A DNA stretch of 24,958 nucleotides, from IMG/VR virus record IMGVR_UViG_3300031721_000041, positions 1 through 24,958 of that record; one strand, written 5' to 3'. The notes beneath the pieces are model-generated. The model had not been told where the DNA came from. It saw only the letters and a list, made by a program, of their open reading frames with translations, and searched no databases. Below are positions 478 through 22,464 of this stretch, one piece after another. This DNA is from a virus. The position numbers were made by a program, and so were the translations under genes. Position 1 is the stretch's first letter. The number at the start of each line of letters is the position of its first letter.

Positions 478-755
478 TAAACAATACTCCAATTTCCTGA
501 GTTACCAATAGTGACTGTCTTGTTATCAGCAATTGTGATAGGCCCAGCGGTCATTCCATTAGTATTTATAGTTATATTTTCATTTATGATGGCAGCATTG
601 GTTCGTATTATAGATAATGTCCCAAGGCTTGGACCACCGAGTGCAACAGCATCAGCAATCTTCTCTGCTGTGATTGCATCATTTGCAATATCTGTTGTAC
701 CAATGGTAGTGTCACCATTTAAAAGTTCTGCAATATTTTTTGAGTTACTGGGCAT
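477..755 (-). CDS. Small fiber-like virion protein (92 aa)
   Basis: The N-terminal part carries a GTTDIANDAITAEKIADAV stretch, close to a motif near the start of the glycine-rich fiber gene at 10443-11480 (ATADIANDAVTADKLA). Such 'D-I-x-N-x-A-I-T-x-x-K-I' stretches are common in phage fiber proteins. The C-terminal part (PITIADNKTVTIGNSGNWSIV, about residues 72-92) looks like the short beta-strand repeats that close fiber modules. It overlaps both neighbours by one base (TAATG at 755 and at 477), so all three genes look translationally coupled. No enzymatic motif is visible. Fiber assignment rests on the motif and context, not on a full-length match. Confidence 0.75.
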   Translation of the reverse strand: MPSNSKNIAELLNGDTTIGTTDIANDAITAEKIADAVALGGPSLGTLSIIRTNAAIINENITINTNGMTAGPITIADNKTVTIGNSGNWSIV

Positions 756-1561
756 TAGCTTTGATACCTCGCCATGATTTCGGATGTATTAACAGGCGCA
801 AATGTGAATGTTAATGTTGAACCGCTGATTGAATAGTCTGTAGTAGGTTTCATAGCGATACCATTATAGAAAATGAATGCACTGTTTGTTGTTGAAGTTC
901 CACTTGATAATGTGAATGCAGTTGCACTACCATTACCAGCGAATACATCTAACTGATAATCTGTACTTCTACGAACCACTCCACGAATACCAAAGTGTTT
1001 TGCTTCAATCTCTGCACTTGCGTCTGGAGCACCAGTGAATGTAAGTGTAGTGCCATTGATTGAATAGTTAGTGCTGGACTTCTGTAGGATACCATCAACA
1101 AACACTAACACGGAGTTTGCGTTTGGAGGATTCTCTGACAGAGTGAATGCGGTAGCAGAACCATTACCAGTGAATAAGTCAGTTGTAAATGACTTTAAAT
1201 TTGCGGCAAGTTCAGTTGCACCAACAGAACCAGTGGGCGGTTTAATTTGGAAAGAACCAATCCCTCTATGCATAACGTAAATAGTTGAACTACTTGCTGC
1301 GGCCTCAGAAAGTTTTAAAATCTTAGGTTCGCCAGCTGCGTTCTGGTGAATAGTGTATGCACTTGTACCTTGTTGGATTACGTTATTAATCACAACCTGT
1401 AAGTTTTCTGCGTTACTGCCTGGCACAGACTCAGTTAGAGCGACTGCATTGGCGTGAGTAATAGAACCTACTGTAATATTTCCAAAACTAGAGTCAGTGA
1501 AATCTTCCTGATGAAAAGCAGGTGAGACTTGATTGTGGAATGGAGTACCTATATACGACAT
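755..1561 (-). CDS. Fiber protein with internal beta repeats (268 aa)
   Basis: Two clear repeats of about 60 residues are visible, at about 128-190 and 205-266. Each follows the plan GNGSATAFTLS, a gap, a strand such as VLVFVDGILQ, then YSI-G-TLTF and AP. A degenerate third copy is at about 39-100 (VVINNVIQQ). This repeat type is typical of marine myovirus tail fibers. Related sequence also occurs in the hub genes at 20272-21324 and 18323-20272. The start has a good ribosome binding site (AAGGGAG, 8 bases before ATG) and sits 12 bases after the previous gene. There are no catalytic motifs. The protein is most likely a fiber or baseplate-attached adhesin segment; its receptor is unknown. Confidence 0.8.
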   Translation of the reverse strand: MSYIGTPFHNQVSPAFHQEDFTDSSFGNITVGSITHANAVALTESVPGSNAENLQVVINNVIQQGTSAYTIHQNAAGEPKILKLSEAAASSSTIYVMHRGIGSFQIKPPTGSVGATELAANLKSFTTDLFTGNGSATAFTLSENPPNANSVLVFVDGILQKSSTNYSINGTTLTFTGAPDASAEIEAKHFGIRGVVRRSTDYQLDVFAGNGSATAFTLSSGTSTTNSAFIFYNGIAMKPTTDYSISGSTLTFTFAPVNTSEIMARYQS

Positions 1562-17604: not shown

Positions 17605-18006
17605 CTAGAGATTAATGAAAGATCGGTTTGCAATATGTTCATCTTCAATATCTTCTTTACATTGTCCGAAGTATGCTACTGCATGATGTTCTTTAATCAT
17701 ATTGTCATTAAGAATACTACCATCTTCCAATCTGAACTTTCCAAGTATTCTTCCGTACTTACCCTTACCATCTTTAACAGTGACTAAGGTTTGAGTAGAA
17801 CCTACAGGCATGGCATTCAACACATATTCCTTTGATGCGAGTCCGTACTTCTTTTCTTCTAAGTCTCTTGTTCTAGATTCTGGTGTGTCGATACCAAAGA
17901 ACCTAACTCGTTGTTTGTGTAACCAAACACCAAACCCTAAGTCAATATCAACATCTGTGGTATCACCATCAATCACTTTAACTATCTTACATGTGTACTC
18001 GTACAT
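17605..18006 (-). CDS. Staphylococcal-nuclease-like (thermonuclease) protein (133 aa)
   Basis: The fold signature is VIDGDTTDVD at residues 11-20, then QRVRFFGIDTPESR at 32-45. Arg35, Asp40 and Glu43 fall at the same numbers as the catalytic residues of Staphylococcus nuclease, and KYGR ends at Arg86 (Arg87 in the enzyme). Asp13 and Asp15 complete the calcium-site pattern. The active site therefore looks intact, and the likely activity is calcium-dependent cleavage of DNA or RNA. I see no signal peptide. It lies in the late hub block, 10 bases after the PAAR gene with AAGGAG before the ATG. Similar genes occur beside baseplate genes in marine T4-like phages. Whether it is packaged with the tail and acts at entry, or acts inside the cell, is not known. 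Confidence 0.88.
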   Translation of the reverse strand: MYEYTCKIVKVIDGDTTDVDIDLGFGVWLHKQRVRFFGIDTPESRTRDLEEKKYGLASKEYVLNAMPVGSTQTLVTVKDGKGKYGRILGKFRLEDGSILNDNMIKEHHAVAYFGQCKEDIEDEHIANRSFINL

Positions 18007-18322: not shown

Positions 18323-20272
18323 CTATGCCAACTGGTAAAACTTACCAGTTTCCTTATAGTTTCTATGGTTATACATTGTTAAAATGAGAGCAGCGTTTCC
18401 AGTTTCCTTACAAGATATATGTATCCAAGGAAGTCCCGAACCTGTATTCTTAAATTCAAGAATCAATTTATCATGGGGAATGTTTTCTCTCATCCATTGA
18501 GCTCTTGCAAAGTATCCAGATTTTGCGAGGCCAGGGAATTGAATATCCGCAGCTTCACCAATGTTATGTTGACTTGTACCAGCCCTACCTCTGTAAGCAT
18601 TAGTGACTATCATATCAGGATACTGTTCTTTGATTGGGTCGAGAACATGCACCGCAAGAGTTTTAAGTTTGTCAATAATTTGTTTCTGTGTCTTACCTTC
18701 ATTGCCACCATTGGCGATTGTCGAAGATGCGACAACAGAGTTCTTGGATAGTTGTCCAAGTGTGAAGTGTGTAGATAGAGGAAGAGAATAGTTTACCCCA
18801 CCAATAACATTACCAGAAGTATCATACTTAGAATTTGCTTGTGCAATCTCAGCTGAAGATGTTATGGAAGTTGCAACTGGAGTCGCTATAAAGTCAGAAC
18901 CTAACGTACCATGTTCTTCACCTTCATCTGGTATGCGAGGTAAAGATACAGCCTTTCTAGTTGCGCCACTGGTATTAATTTTTCCTGTTAGTGAATTATA
19001 AGAGTAGTCAGAGAAAGTCGAGGGCAATACCTCACCCGATTCAATTGCAGTTTTGATATCACTATCAGTCTTCTCTTCATCATCACCTGCAAAGAAGCTA
19101 TCTGATTCAGTTAGAGGGATGAATGCTTTATCCGCCTTGATGTCTGCAAGTTTCATTGCAGCAATCTTTGTAGAGAATGTATCAAGCTCGTACTCACCAA
19201 TATTAATACTCCAAGGTAGAATGCCTGTTGCAATATCTCCAGTGTCCATGAATGTAACTTCTGGTGTAATGTCTTCACCAATAGCAGGGGATGGAGTTGT
19301 GCGAGGTACAATAGGAGTGATCGTTACCGCACTTCTTGTAACAGAGTTCAAGTCGATTGTCGCACCAGAAAGATTCATTGCACCAGCAGAACCTATGTTC
19401 AATGCTCCAGCAGTGTCAAGTACCATTGCACCAGTTGATGCGACAGTGTAAGTTACTTCTGTGTTCAATGCAACTGCACCCGTGATGTTGGTAGTAAGTG
19501 TACCTTTAATATCTGTGAGGGAATTACCATCCAACACCATGTCATAGTTACCATGAACAGAATTTGTAAAGTTACCACTAGTAACTATTTGCATATCCCC
19601 TACAGATTGTTGTAAGAACTTTCCAACAGACTGTTGTGCCATAGTTGTCTGTGCTGTCATCTCAATAGATTCATTTGCAAACATACGAATGTTCTTGCCT
19701 GCATGGAAGTCTATGTTCTTACCGACATTGAAATTTAAGTTCTCATCAACCTGAGCATCCATACTGCCACGGACATACAAAGACGCATCACCATCAACAA
19801 AGACTTTCATGTTACCACGAACACGAACATGTTTGTTTTGATGAACGATTTCAAACCCGTCACCAACAATCTTTGTTACCTTAGTTCCGTCTGGATGTAT
19901 TTCGTAGAACGTACCAGAACGATGGTATTCGTGAATACGCTCGTGGCCTGGCGTATCATCCATCTCTTGAATATGACCACTTTCGGTTTCCCGTACATGG
20001 TTGAAAGGGTATTGTGCATTGTAAGACGGAGCTGGTTCGCCCGTTAAGTCATCTAGATTATCTTTCTTAAACTTGTTGACAGGGTGTTGGTTTCGTGCAT
20101 CGTTAACCGCAAGTCGATTAGTGTCTGCCTCATTAACTCTACGAGGATAGAACCCTCTTGGGTCAGTAAATCCTTTAAGAGTGTTTACTGTGGATACAAC
20201 TATCTCAACTTCAGAACCTTCTCTTGGTGCATCTTGGAAGACTACCTTGCCTGCTTCAATTCTATACGACAT
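18323..20272 (-). CDS. 5: Hub spike protein: gp5-type beta-helix plus C-terminal M15 peptidase (649 aa)
   Basis: Residues 1-30 (YRIEAGKVVFQDAPREGSEV) look like the second half of a fiber-type beta repeat. Residues 84-130 (NHVRETESGHIQEMDDTPGH, then YHRSGTFYEIHPDGT) are the VgrG/gp5-type lead-in. About 135-310 is a run of short repeats (VFVDGDASLYVRG, FNVGKNIDFHAGKNIRMFA), the triple-stranded beta-helix that pierces the outer membrane in T4. Residues 500-645 form an M15-type D,D-peptidase: HFTLGQL, TNAYRGRAGTSQHNIGEAAD (zinc ligands His569 and Asp576) and WIH with His618. The start is TAATG-coupled to the OB-fold gene, with AGGGGAG 7 bases before the ATG, so it is a true separate start. Together the two genes make one gp5 equivalent. 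Confidence 0.88.
   Translation of the reverse strand: MSYRIEAGKVVFQDAPREGSEVEIVVSTVNTLKGFTDPRGFYPRRVNEADTNRLAVNDARNQHPVNKFKKDNLDDLTGEPAPSYNAQYPFNHVRETESGHIQEMDDTPGHERIHEYHRSGTFYEIHPDGTKVTKIVGDGFEIVHQNKHVRVRGNMKVFVDGDASLYVRGSMDAQVDENLNFNVGKNIDFHAGKNIRMFANESIEMTAQTTMAQQSVGKFLQQSVGDMQIVTSGNFTNSVHGNYDMVLDGNSLTDIKGTLTTNITGAVALNTEVTYTVASTGAMVLDTAGALNIGSAGAMNLSGATIDLNSVTRSAVTITPIVPRTTPSPAIGEDITPEVTFMDTGDIATGILPWSINIGEYELDTFSTKIAAMKLADIKADKAFIPLTESDSFFAGDDEEKTDSDIKTAIESGEVLPSTFSDYSYNSLTGKINTSGATRKAVSLPRIPDEGEEHGTLGSDFIATPVATSITSSAEIAQANSKYDTSGNVIGGVNYSLPLSTHFTLGQLSKNSVVASSTIANGGNEGKTQKQIIDKLKTLAVHVLDPIKEQYPDMIVTNAYRGRAGTSQHNIGEAADIQFPGLAKSGYFARAQWMRENIPHDKLILEFKNTGSGLPWIHISCKETGNAALILTMYNHRNYKETGKFYQLA
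18330..18350 (-). other. Perfect 9-bp hairpin before the PAAR gene
   Basis: The minus strand reads AACTGGTAA, GTT, TTACCAGTT: a perfect 9-bp stem with a 3-base loop, within the last codons of the beta-helix gene. It ends 11 bases before the PAAR ATG, whose AGGAG has no spacer. No U-tract follows. It may tune PAAR translation or mark an RNA cut site. Confidence 0.6.
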
Positions 20273-21324
20273 TAGGAAACTCCCCTCTCTGTGGAATATT
20301 CTGCCAAAGTAATCTCTTTTGATTTCAATCTATCATCAACCTTATTAGGAAATTCATTAGGGTAGAAGTGTCCGCTATCATTTTCAATATCATTCTTCAA
20401 GCCTGCAGTGGAGAATGCAGTACGAGCAATACCTTCATACAGAGTCTTATCCCAAAGCGCATTGCCGTAAACATCTGTAATAATAAAGTCAATCGCTGCA
20501 CCGAAGTTGTGCCATGAACTGCCTGGCCTTGCTGCATTTTTCCCACCAGATTTATATGTTCGATGTAGTTCTTGTTGCTGTGCAGAAGAGATGTATGCAT
20601 AGGATATAATACAATCATAATCTTCATTCTTAGCAAGGAAGGTTTGAACACCCTTAACAAACTTGGGACGCAGTTCTGGTGCGATCTCATTAATACGAGC
20701 AGCAAGTCTAGTCTTATGTCTTGACCTTTCAAATGCACTTGCTTCCACTGTAACACCATCACCATAATAAGAGTCAGGTGGTATCTCTATATTGTTTTGA
20801 GATTCGGGGGGATTGTTTTCTGCTGCTTGCACAACTCCATTAATCTTAACGAGTACTGTAGAGTCTGTCGTATCTGCTGGTGTAGAAAATTCTGTTGTAG
20901 TACCATCGCCCAGTGTTGTAGAAGCAGCTACTTCTGGAATAGGTAGTTCTTGATTGGGGGAGTAGTCGTGTGGAGATTGACCTGTGGGTGCAGACTCAGG
21001 AGAGTTGATGCCAGGAATTGTTCCTATCACCATAGGTTCTTGCATAAAGTCTGGGTCACGCCAGAAACCAAATACCCATGAACCTTCAATAGGCCCTGTG
21101 GGAGACATACCGATACCGCCAGCAGATGCCGATGTAGTTGGTTGTACGCAAACTGCCCAAGGTAAATCTACTGTGGGAAGTTTAGTTTTATCTGCTGTGT
21201 GATAACCATATACACGAGCTCGTACACGACCCAATGCTAGTGGATCATTTCTATCTTCTATTACACCAAACCACCAGACGAACCCGTCACGGCCAGCGAA
21301 GAATGTGTTGTCAGTTGTCGCCAT
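20272..21324 (-). CDS. 5: Hub protein: gp5-type OB fold plus M15-type endopeptidase (350 aa)
   Basis: Residues about 12-105 form the gp5 N-terminal OB domain (GFVWWFGVIEDRNDPLALGR, then VRARVYGYHT and LPWAVCVQP; GSWVFGFWRDPDFMQEPMVI). Residues 134-166 (GDGTTTEF, VLVKINGVVQ) are half of a fiber-type beta repeat. Residues 205-330 look like a VanY / L-alanyl-D-glutamate peptidase: SAQQQELH, PGSSWHNFGAAIDF with zinc ligands His272 and Asp279, and SGHFYP with His319. This replaces the lysozyme of T4 gp5 and would open peptidoglycan during entry. The usual Tyr-Arg-Ser before the helix reads Tyr-Ile-Ser (Ile245), so activity is not certain. The gene is first behind a weak late box with AAGGAG before the ATG, and overlaps the beta-helix gene as TAATG. 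Confidence 0.87.
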   Translation of the reverse strand: MATTDNTFFAGRDGFVWWFGVIEDRNDPLALGRVRARVYGYHTADKTKLPTVDLPWAVCVQPTTSASAGGIGMSPTGPIEGSWVFGFWRDPDFMQEPMVIGTIPGINSPESAPTGQSPHDYSPNQELPIPEVAASTTLGDGTTTEFSTPADTTDSTVLVKINGVVQAAENNPPESQNNIEIPPDSYYGDGVTVEASAFERSRHKTRLAARINEIAPELRPKFVKGVQTFLAKNEDYDCIISYAYISSAQQQELHRTYKSGGKNAARPGSSWHNFGAAIDFIITDVYGNALWDKTLYEGIARTAFSTAGLKNDIENDSGHFYPNEFPNKVDDRLKSKEITLAEYSTERGVS

Positions 21325-21416: not shown

Positions 21417-21473
21417 TACATTACAATGTATACTACAATGTACATTACAATGTATACTACAATGTACATTACA
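21417..21473. repeat. 24-bp tandem repeat with internal palindromes
   Basis: The unit starts TACATTACAATGTATACTAC and ends AATG. It occurs twice without change at 21417-21440 and 21441-21464, and a third partial copy follows from 21465. Each junction makes the perfect palindrome AATGTACATT (21437-21446 and 21461-21470), and each unit holds GTATAC. It lies between the stop at 21534 and the terminator, outside any gene. Confidence 0.85.
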
Positions 21474-21533
21474 TGTAACTTACCACGACAGTCACAAGGA
21501 GTTGCATTGCTACTATAAACAATACTGTCTCAA

Positions 21534-21836
21534 TCATAACTGCAATCCAGCTGAACCACTGATCGATGTCATCTTCATTAAGATGTTATCTATGTCAGAC
21601 TCCGAACAGAATCCCTTTACAGTATCACCCTTACGAGTAATGCCAGGCAGTTCACATTGCAACCTTGATTTAGTCATCTTGTAGTACTTAGAAACCGAAA
21701 TCTCATACAGTCCCTCTTTGTTACCATAGGACATCTCATTCTTAATAACAGATAACTCATACCCTCCAAACTGAACAAGGGCTTGAACACCATTGGGTGT
21801 TTCTGTTTCTTTAAACTTTAACTCATCGAATTTCAT
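21534..21836 (-). CDS. Hypothetical protein, MKFDELKF-type (100 aa)
   Basis: I choose the ATG at 21836 (MKFDELKFKETETPNGVQAL) rather than the one eight codons earlier, because GGAG lies 10 bases ahead of it. The start then overlaps the metalloprotease gene by 14 bases. The sequence GGYELSVIKNEMSYGNKEGL (about residues 24-43) recalls small conserved proteins of marine T4-like phages with no known function. The C-terminus ends in a helix-like DIDNILMKMTS. There is no membrane segment or catalytic motif. It is the last gene of the operon that starts at 22867, and is followed by the tandem repeat and the terminator. Confidence 0.75.
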   Translation of the reverse strand: MKFDELKFKETETPNGVQALVQFGGYELSVIKNEMSYGNKEGLYEISVSKYYKMTKSRLQCELPGITRKGDTVKGFCSESDIDNILMKMTSISGSAGLQL

Positions 21837-22464
21837 TGCGTATTTTCTCCATACGTTCATAACTCTCTAACCATTTCAAAGGGGACATAATGCTTTGACT
21901 AACGGACATCTTTAACTTGCGAGAGCGAAACTCTTTCTTCAAGTCTTTCGCCACCTGCACTCCCAAGAAACGGGAGACTAACTTCACTAATGTTTGTCGG
22001 AACCCTACATCGTGATTCATGTTCCCAGCCGTGTGTGCCAGTTCATGGATGATGGTGTACTTGTTGGTTCCGTGATTGGGACGCAGTGCAATCCCATAGT
22101 AACTTGCCTGTCCAGCAACACGAGCATTCTGAGAGGCCTTCATAAAACGTAATTGAGGGTCACTCATACCACGATCACCCGTTACCAAAGACTGATATGT
22201 CTTTGACTTGACAATACGATTAAAGTACTTTTGACATTCCTTTTCGGATAGGTTACTTGAACACTCTGGATACAATCGTTGAACTGCAAACTCACTCTGA
22301 TAGACCTTAGATCGACCACTGTCTACTCCGCTGTTCTGCAATCGGTTAGTGTTGATGGACTTTGACTTCTTTAGGTAGTAGAGTGCCCACTTGTCGCCAA
22401 GGTTATCATAGGTGAGTCCATAGTCTCTTGCCACTTGCCCAGCTTCAGATCGAGTCATACTCAT
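21823..22464 (-). CDS. Putative HEXXH metalloprotease, TIGR04338-like (213 aa)
   Basis: The zinc motif is HELAH at residues 140-144, with a downstream HDVGF (His151, Asp152) that can supply the third ligand. This spacing, and the preceding part with KVYQSEFAVQRLYPE (about 53-67) and ASYYGIALRPN (about 120-130), resemble the TIGR04338 family of putative metallohydrolases of actinobacteria and phages. The pattern HExxHxxGxxxH is one residue longer than the metzincin pattern, so I do not call it a metzincin. The product has no signal peptide and is rich in basic residues at the C-terminus. The target is unknown; host regulators or a phage protein are both possible. The start shares ATGA with the previous gene's stop, with AGGAG 10 bases ahead. 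Confidence 0.75.
   Translation of the reverse strand: MSMTRSEAGQVARDYGLTYDNLGDKWALYYLKKSKSINTNRLQNSGVDSGRSKVYQSEFAVQRLYPECSSNLSEKECQKYFNRIVKSKTYQSLVTGDRGMSDPQLRFMKASQNARVAGQASYYGIALRPNHGTNKYTIIHELAHTAGNMNHDVGFRQTLVKLVSRFLGVQVAKDLKKEFRSRKLKMSVSQSIMSPLKWLESYERMEKIRNEIR

Follow-up and report, generated by a model that had tools for sequence, protein, structure and literature searches.

The window analysed here is the whole of IMG/VR virus record IMGVR_UViG_3300031721_000041 (one virus record, 24,958 bases). On its minus strand it carries two adjacent genes whose products together have the layout of gp5, the hub and spike protein of phage T4. Gene 1 encodes an OB domain followed by a predicted peptidase, and gene 2 encodes the beta-helical spike. 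The first-pass annotation of this DNA had read the pair as gp5 in two genes, with an OB and a peptidoglycan-hydrolase-type domain on the first and the spike on the second. It had also described two open reading frames (ORFs) overlapping as TAATG, with an AGGGGAG ribosome-binding site 7 bases before the second ATG, and all of these points hold. Whereas T4-type gp5 is made as one precursor chain, two ORFs are found in the window, in 85 IMG/VR contigs and in the Methylophilales phages Melnitz. The two genes and their features are as follows.

20272-21324, minus strand: gene 1, 350 residues; OB domain, first half of a small XD2-like beta domain (putative) and predicted M15C-type peptidase
18323-20272, minus strand: gene 2, 649 residues; second beta-domain half (putative), OB tail/linker, triple beta-helix spike and putative C-terminal M15-type domain
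20270-20274, minus strand: TAATG stop/start overlap; base 20272 is common to genes 1 and 2
20280-20286, minus strand: AGGGGAG ribosome-binding site of gene 2, 7 bases 5′ of its ATG
21010-21291, minus strand: Gp5 OB domain, gene 1 residues ~12-105; PF06714 E 2e-18, above cut-off
20287-20742, minus strand: predicted M15C-type (L-Ala-D-Glu endopeptidase-like) peptidase, gene 1 residues 195-346, with His272, Asp279, Asp316 and His319
20105-20173, minus strand: GFTDP...DTNRLAV segment, gene 2 residues 34-56; counterpart of T4 gp5 ~113-134 (phmmer), which comes soon after the OB barrel in fused relatives
19337-20038, minus strand: gp5C-like triple beta-helix spike, gene 2 residues ~79-312; phrog_430 E 4.4e-63
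18353-18781, minus strand: putative M15-type peptidase domain at the spike end, gene 2 residues ~498-640; phrog_894 E 2.7e-14, VanY only E 0.039

As in T4-type gp5, the OB domain of gene 1 (PF06714) is N-terminal; its region matches residues 8-122 of T4 gp5 and 5-124 of PDB entry 9f4a in phmmer searches. The VanY family of Pfam matches the enzyme region with E 2.3e-4 and 21.4 bits, below its cut-off of 25. Residues 199-350 of the AlphaFold model of gene 1 superpose on Ply500 (2vo9; Z 13.0, root-mean-square deviation (rmsd) 2.5, 134 aligned residues; VIA-align), an endopeptidase of a Listeria phage with the fold of the M15C L-Ala-D-Glu endopeptidases. The four residues His272, Asp279, Asp316 and His319 are invariant across 32 aligned sequences and fit the pattern HxxxxxxD...DxxH, which we take to be the zinc-site motif of M15C enzymes. 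The gene 1 enzyme is, by this model, a predicted M15-type peptidase near Ply500 in fold rather than a T4-type lysozyme. Its region matches only eight phage records at E 1e-3, four from Melnitz and four from Bacillus phage. No lysozyme domain was detected in the Pfam scan of the two proteins, and the PHROG hub families named 'tail lysozyme' match the OB and spike stretches of the two proteins.

Gene 2 matches the end of the OB family model (Pfam, positions 71-118) and continues with the triple-stranded beta-helix that corresponds to gp5C in T4. The spike is matched by PDB entry 9f4a (E 1.4e-26) and also by T4 gp5, while PF22178 stays below its cut-off (E 1.2e-4). At the end of gene 2 is a second, putative M15-type domain, which the first-pass annotation had overlooked. 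It is assigned to this type because of its match to phrog_894 and its phage relatives: gp5 of phages pf16 and Cr30 ends in a domain 45% identical to it, and 116 phage records match it, including gp5 and proteins annotated PAAR. A PDB sequence search with this domain gave no M15 match, returning only two fiber proteins (E 0.045 and 0.14). In eight readings among the loci compared below (L265-L272; full sequence in L265 and L271), the conserved LLE/ILE glutamate of the tip domain reads ILQ, and given this change the domain may be inactive in that group.

Conservation of the split

We examined 220 loci, namely Melnitz (L003) and 219 from scans of IMG/VR, two of which covered the best 80 of 166 loci and the best 80 of 409. 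A separate, sixth scan with a Mosig-type gp5 as seed covered the best 80 of at least 597. Both sides of the junction were present in 201 of the 220, and one side in 19. The gene was split as in the window in 196 of the 201 two-sided readings, which include repeats and, with contigs matched by hand, represent 85 IMG/VR contigs and Melnitz. These 85 contigs are 41-100% identical to the window proteins and contain 61 distinct 300-base junction regions; three contigs (L007, L008 and L028) are 100% identical to window gene 1 over the part present. The five exceptions are remote. L102-L104 have one fused ORF, 29% identical in the spike, and L237-L238 have another layout, described below.

The relation between the stop codon of gene 1 and the start of gene 2 was read in 127 split readings, and was TAA +2 in 110, TAA +6 (in frame) in 11, TAA +4 in three and TGA -1 in three. 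As the frame relation varies, the separation appears to be kept while the junction itself drifts. A Shine–Dalgarno-like motif of at least four bases, scored from a lenient list without a background control, is found in 26 of 28 distinct junction sequences. The length of gene 1 lies between 344 and 356 residues over 109 readings and is 350 in 37 of them. In a tree of the OB and spike segments, 35 split taxa formed one clade with an ultrafast bootstrap support of 100, as against 43 fused taxa; one fission event therefore suffices. The tree left out L096, L237, L109, L113 and L114, which have short segments, and one duplicate.

In the sixth scan, OB and spike lay in the same ORF in 76 of the 80 loci taken, and only a spike was present in four. 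The set of 76 includes L358, whose OB domain is divided between two ORFs, and some loci truncated at contig ends. Fewer than 40 residues separate the OB and spike matches in 74 of the 76, which therefore have no space for an enzyme there; the other two (L392 and L393) have long inserts.

A sequencing or assembly error could in principle have broken one gene in two, and the window is a single virus record. The same split in 85 contigs and four Melnitz genomes (junction bases read in one, L003) has already refuted this explanation, to which we assign a negligible probability. The view of the first-pass annotation that the break is no sequencing error is thus confirmed by its retention in Melnitz and 85 contigs with three frame relations, and the case named there as contrary, a fused gene in an otherwise identical relative, was not seen among the loci examined, where fused forms are remote. 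It could also be supposed that programmed frameshifting or stop read-through yields an additional, fused gp5. In L024-L027 and their kin gene 2 does lie in the same frame, 3 bases past a single TAA; however, the frame relation differs among relatives, the Shine–Dalgarno-like motif is present at nearly all distinct junctions, and no slippery heptamer was seen by eye, no tool search having been made for one. We therefore consider such a product very improbable. Fission of the gp5 gene is well supported. One further frame break or stop was seen in L032 (~2675-2829), where it interrupts gene 1 itself and the boundary with gene 2 is normal.

Position of the break relative to T4 gp5

Cleavage of T4 gp5 separates Ser351 from Ala352, within the linker that joins lysozyme to beta-helix (PMC3004832). 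In phmmer alignments, residues 24-56 of gene 2 correspond to T4 gp5 103-134 and residues 53-168 to T4 352-467, and Ser351/Ala352 therefore falls approximately 52 residues inside gene 2. The residues right around the mapped site form a weakly conserved linker. Gene 2 thus keeps a stretch which in T4 is part of gp5*, and the break between the two genes corresponds to T4 residues ~102-105, after the OB barrel and before the GFxDP motif. In the fused proteins of KVP40, K566, D479 and Mosig, the OB barrel and GFxDP are close together.

The first-pass annotation had placed the split where T4 gp5 is cut, and had set the end of gene 1 at residue 350 beside the T4 cut at Ser351/Ala352. The alignments contradict the first claim, and the nearness of 350 to 351 is a coincidence, since gene 1 varies in length from 344 to 356 residues. 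The alignment with T4 and marine relatives proposed there upholds the same module order, but both the site of the break and the kind of enzyme differ. Homology of the break to the T4 cut is ruled out by the T4 alignments and the spread of gene 1 lengths.

A related proposal is that separate translation has replaced a maturation cleavage of the T4 type, with both site and purpose unchanged. The overall order is indeed the same, OB and hydrolase and then spike. In T4, moreover, gp5* and gp5C both remain in the particle, and lysozyme activity in the gp5 trimer with its gp5C is about 10% of the monomer value (PMC3004832), so an uncoupled chain could matter. This proposal is nevertheless improbable: the position of the T4 cut falls within gene 2, the two enzymes differ in kind, the length of gene 1 is not fixed, an enzyme would not fit between OB and spike in 74 of the 76 fused loci from the sixth scan, and the analysis showed no descent from a cleaved ancestor.

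A putative small beta domain on both sides of the break

Short segments before the peptidase in gene 1 and at the start of gene 2 resemble the two parts of one small beta domain, of which an intact copy is found elsewhere in the window.

20818-20934, minus strand: half A (putative), gene 1 residues 131-169; residues 139-169 match positions 8-39 of a 67-position hidden Markov model (HMM) of the intact domain
20192-20269, minus strand: half B (putative), gene 2 residues 2-27; residues 3-25 match HMM positions 42-66, weakly alone (2.5 bits, independent E-value 0.017)
1004-1186, minus strand: intact comparator copy of the beta domain, in the structural protein at 755-1561; DUF4183 E 3.4e-5, just below cut-off

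The structural protein (755-1561, minus strand, 268 residues) contains a tandem pair of XD/DUF4183-like beta domains; judging by eye, a third, degenerate one may be present at its N-terminus. The profile was made from 233 intact copies in relatives of this protein, and halves from 37 distinct pairs were scored against it. Joined halves gave a mean of 21.0 bits (range 6.4-28.4; window pair 21.9). Half A alone gave 10.8, half B alone 10.9, the two in reversed order 9.9, and both shuffled 0.3 bits on average. The means were 11.1 for A joined to shuffled B, 12.0 for shuffled A joined to B, and 11.0 and 10.9 for mis-joined pieces; shuffles of a single half reached the true means in 1 of 1850 cases for A and in none of 1850 for B. 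Both halves match intact copies of the window's own beta domain, in order, as expected of an XD2/XD3-like sequence, but they are on separate ORFs and not contiguous in one chain. The joined segment also matches phrog_2710 (tail fiber; E 1.9e-4), and DUF4183 below its cut-off (E 0.011).

Counting repeats, the N-terminal half was seen in 142 of 187 readings of ORFs with OB and M15C domains, and the C-terminal half (any positive score) in 149 of 206 readings of spike ORFs lacking OB. No XD match above 4 bits was present within 120 residues after the OB domain in any of 87 fused OB-spike ORFs. Similarly, no fused gp5 with an internal M15C domain, or with an intact XD domain between OB and spike, was found among the loci examined. 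Judged from these matches, it looks as though the break and the peptidase together interrupt one small beta domain resembling XD2 of gp10 and TSP4, a feature that the first-pass annotation does not mention. In CBA120 TSP4 and T4 gp10, XD2 and XD3 are jelly-rolls that bind other trimers (PMC8825819).

Two structure models bear on whether the halves could fold together. In the read-through model, made with AlphaFold 2 from the relative L024, the in-frame TAA was read as Q, and gene 1 was followed by 62 residues of gene 2 (46-row, largely unpaired alignment). Both halves formed strands, those of half A at residues 132-161, with predicted local distance difference test (pLDDT) scores in successive blocks of 74, 79 and 62 at 131-160 and of 64, 73 and 66 at 351-380. 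Between residues 131 and 383 of this model, 64 residues superpose on residues 187-250 of CBA120 TSP4 (7rfv; Z 8.7, rmsd 1.6). As the TSP4 stretch is contiguous and has 64 residues, most of the peptidase must be left out of the alignment. Roughly the same part of the model is also matched by LME-1 (9efk; Z 8.8, rmsd 3.5) and other phage tail chains. In the model of gene 1 alone, made from the window sequence with a 32-row alignment, residues 131-160 had pLDDT scores of 28, 30 and 26 by block, and no strand was formed at 121-159. The structural table for this model lists M15-like and hedgehog-like rows only, and the lack of XD rows in it proves nothing. The OB blocks (residues 11-110) had pLDDT scores of 41-60 in the read-through model; the two models differ in sequence and alignment, and the gene 1-alone model is poor throughout its N-terminal half, so that the contrast between them is only partly specific to half A. 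The contrast supports reassembly of the two halves without proving it.

Several observations weigh against reassembly or against the two-chain hub as a whole. Individual controls scored as high as many true joins, with maxima of 22.1 bits for A with shuffled B, 24.8 for shuffled A with B, 24.6 for A with other pieces of gene 2, and 37.2 for other pieces of gene 1 with B, although the latter pieces may overlap half A. In a first test of the joined halves against one window protein, the true join gave 16.3 bits and 200 shuffles of each half reached maxima of 12.2 (B) and 19.8 (A). The halves went undetected in 45 of the 187 OB and M15C readings and in 57 of the 206 OB-less spike readings. The Z-score of 8.7 is barely above the level that the tool calls common, only the end residues of that alignment being printed, and the read-through model represents a relative, as a single chain, at modest confidence (mean pLDDT 61.7, predicted template modelling score 0.44). 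Nearly all of residues 1-185 in the gene 1-alone model, the OB domain included, are below pLDDT 50. An uninterrupted XD domain between OB and spike was not found in any gp5 examined, leaving the proposed ancestor unseen. Finally, support for two chains comes from genes and models, and the virion proteins are predicted ones.

These points leave room for a reading in which both chains belong to the hub but the halves stay apart, half A serving as a flexible linker and half B as an extension at the N-terminus, both remnants of an old domain. The prediction of half A as unstructured in gene 1 alone would fit it, as would the low score of half B by itself in the window protein, the readings with undetected halves, and one subclade in which NGVVQ of half A has drifted to DGESD. 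The complementary model ranges in 37 distinct pairs and the joint fold near TSP4 XD2 in the read-through model argue the other way, and we regard this reading as unlikely, though a more serious contender than replacement of the T4 cleavage.

A probable two-chain hub and its known relatives

The interpretation that we favour, with a probability of roughly 0.6, is that a T4-type hub/spike gp5 exists here as two chains through an old, stable gene fission and is partly held together by domain complementation. A beta domain that lay between OB barrel and spike would have received a peptidase in one of its loops, and a stop/start would have arisen at the far end of the inserted peptidase. Coupled translation, through TAATG and the ribosome-binding site of gene 2, would supply both chains, of about 38 and 70 kDa as estimated from their lengths, at similar levels. 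Inside the gp27 ring, the OB barrel and its tail would bring the chains together by OB-spike packing, and the beta-domain halves would complete each other in the virion, leaving the M15C domain on a chain end free of the spike. The result would be the two-chain state that T4 reaches by proteolysis, here without a protease and at a different point. As lysozyme in the T4 trimer keeps about a tenth of its activity, a detached chain could free the enzyme. Whereas the fission is well supported, we infer the reassembly of the halves. The full scheme is tentative, and we would give it slightly less than an even chance: two separately translated chains share one small domain, and the hub assembles by strand complementation, with this clasp holding one peptidase outside the spike trimer and a second peptidase at the tip.

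Among the cell-puncturing proteins of contractile tails gp5 is the reference, and a clade with a split gp5 allows the purpose of the T4 cut to be asked about without a protease. If the proposal is true, the gene boundary conserved within a folded domain would provide a case of natural domain complementation in a virion and a natural split-protein joint. Two putative peptidase-type domains are also now placed in a phage group reported to have no lysin-like genes besides gp67 (PMC9004378). The group of split-gp5 phages is widespread and marine.

Downstream (3′) of gene 2 are a PAAR-like gene (below the Pfam cut-off), a staphylococcal-nuclease-like gene (17605-18006, minus strand; PF00565 E 9.5e-11), gp25, gp6 and a baseplate wedge gene, the nuclease-like gene lying between the PAAR-like gene and gp25. 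This set of baseplate genes places the locus in the baseplate operon of a T4-type phage. Upstream of gene 1, positions 21417-21477 contain about 2.6 copies of the 24-base repeat TACATTACAATGTATACTACAATG, which is possibly regulatory. Further upstream, a 213-residue protein (21823-22464, minus strand) has a HELAH motif that by eye resembles a zinc metallopeptidase; Pfam gave no match to it at a threshold of E 0.01.

Among named phages, those closest to the window are the Methylophilales phages Melnitz (Kyanoviridae; MZ577095-MZ577098; host on record Methylophilales sp. H5P1), with the same two genes, 63% (gene 1) and 65% (gene 2) identical. Both genes are on record, annotated as 'OB domain protein' ('hypothetical protein' in MZ577095) and 'baseplate hub subunit/tail lysozyme'. 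Melnitz EXVC044M also has the TAATG overlap, followed by a nuclease-like gene and two baseplate wedge genes, and differs little from the window; the nuclease-like gene lies in the same stretch as that at window 17605-18006.

Like the window pair, T4 gp5 has an OB barrel, a hydrolase module and a triple beta-helix, and is present in the particle as two chains (gp5* and gp5C; the window chains are predicted). Unlike it, T4 gp5 is encoded by one gene, is cut at Ser351/Ala352, and has a T4-type lysozyme after the GFxDP segment (PMC3004832). The putative XD halves and tip peptidase of the window are not described for T4 gp5 in the available text of that source. The fused hubs of T4, Ci1 and Cr30 do carry an enzyme between OB and spike (Ci1 and Cr30 by eye). 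Mosig- and KVP40-type gp5 without lysozyme share OB, GFxDP and beta-helix with the window, but in one ORF and with no hydrolase between. Among cyanophages, the gp5-like ORFs of RB11-B, P-SSM5 and P-SSM2 (L111, L112 and L244) carry OB; in RB11-B and P-SSM5 there was no spike match in the OB ORF and no spike family in the three downstream ORFs scanned. The XD2-XD3 jelly-rolls of CBA120 TSP4 and T4 gp10 are contiguous in one chain, whereas the candidate domain of the window is cut by an enzyme and a gene boundary.

Other layouts are found in further loci. L392 (1809-5276) and L393 (2256-5054) have a single-ORF gp5 with about 460 and 320 residues, respectively, between the OB and spike matches. 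The L393 insert has a sub-threshold match to Glyco_hydro_19, and C-termini resembling M15 were seen in L393 (sub-threshold, Pfam) and in L392 (by eye). Unlike the window, both have one ORF, a different insert and no XD or M15C profile match. In L237 (74-5270) and L238, a gene with OB and Phage_lysozyme2 is followed by an amidase-like gene (phrog_822 E 7.4e-12; Pfam Amidase_2 sub-threshold) and then by a gene that starts shortly before GFSDP and contains the beta-helix. These two loci differ from the window in having no XD halves by eye and an M15C-type domain at the C-terminus of the spike gene. Because the inserts of L392 and L393 and the break in L237 lie at the same point, the position between OB and GFxDP, as placed by sequence matches, recurs as a site of insertion and breakage for different putative cell-wall enzymes or other long inserts. 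A survey of pelagimyophages reported that gp5 diverges much more than VrlC and suggested adaptation to host walls (PMC7029224); this divergence accords with the enzyme swapping seen here. Taken together, the comparisons indicate that the window pair is most likely a fission form of the T4-type hub, working like the mature gp5*-gp5C complex.

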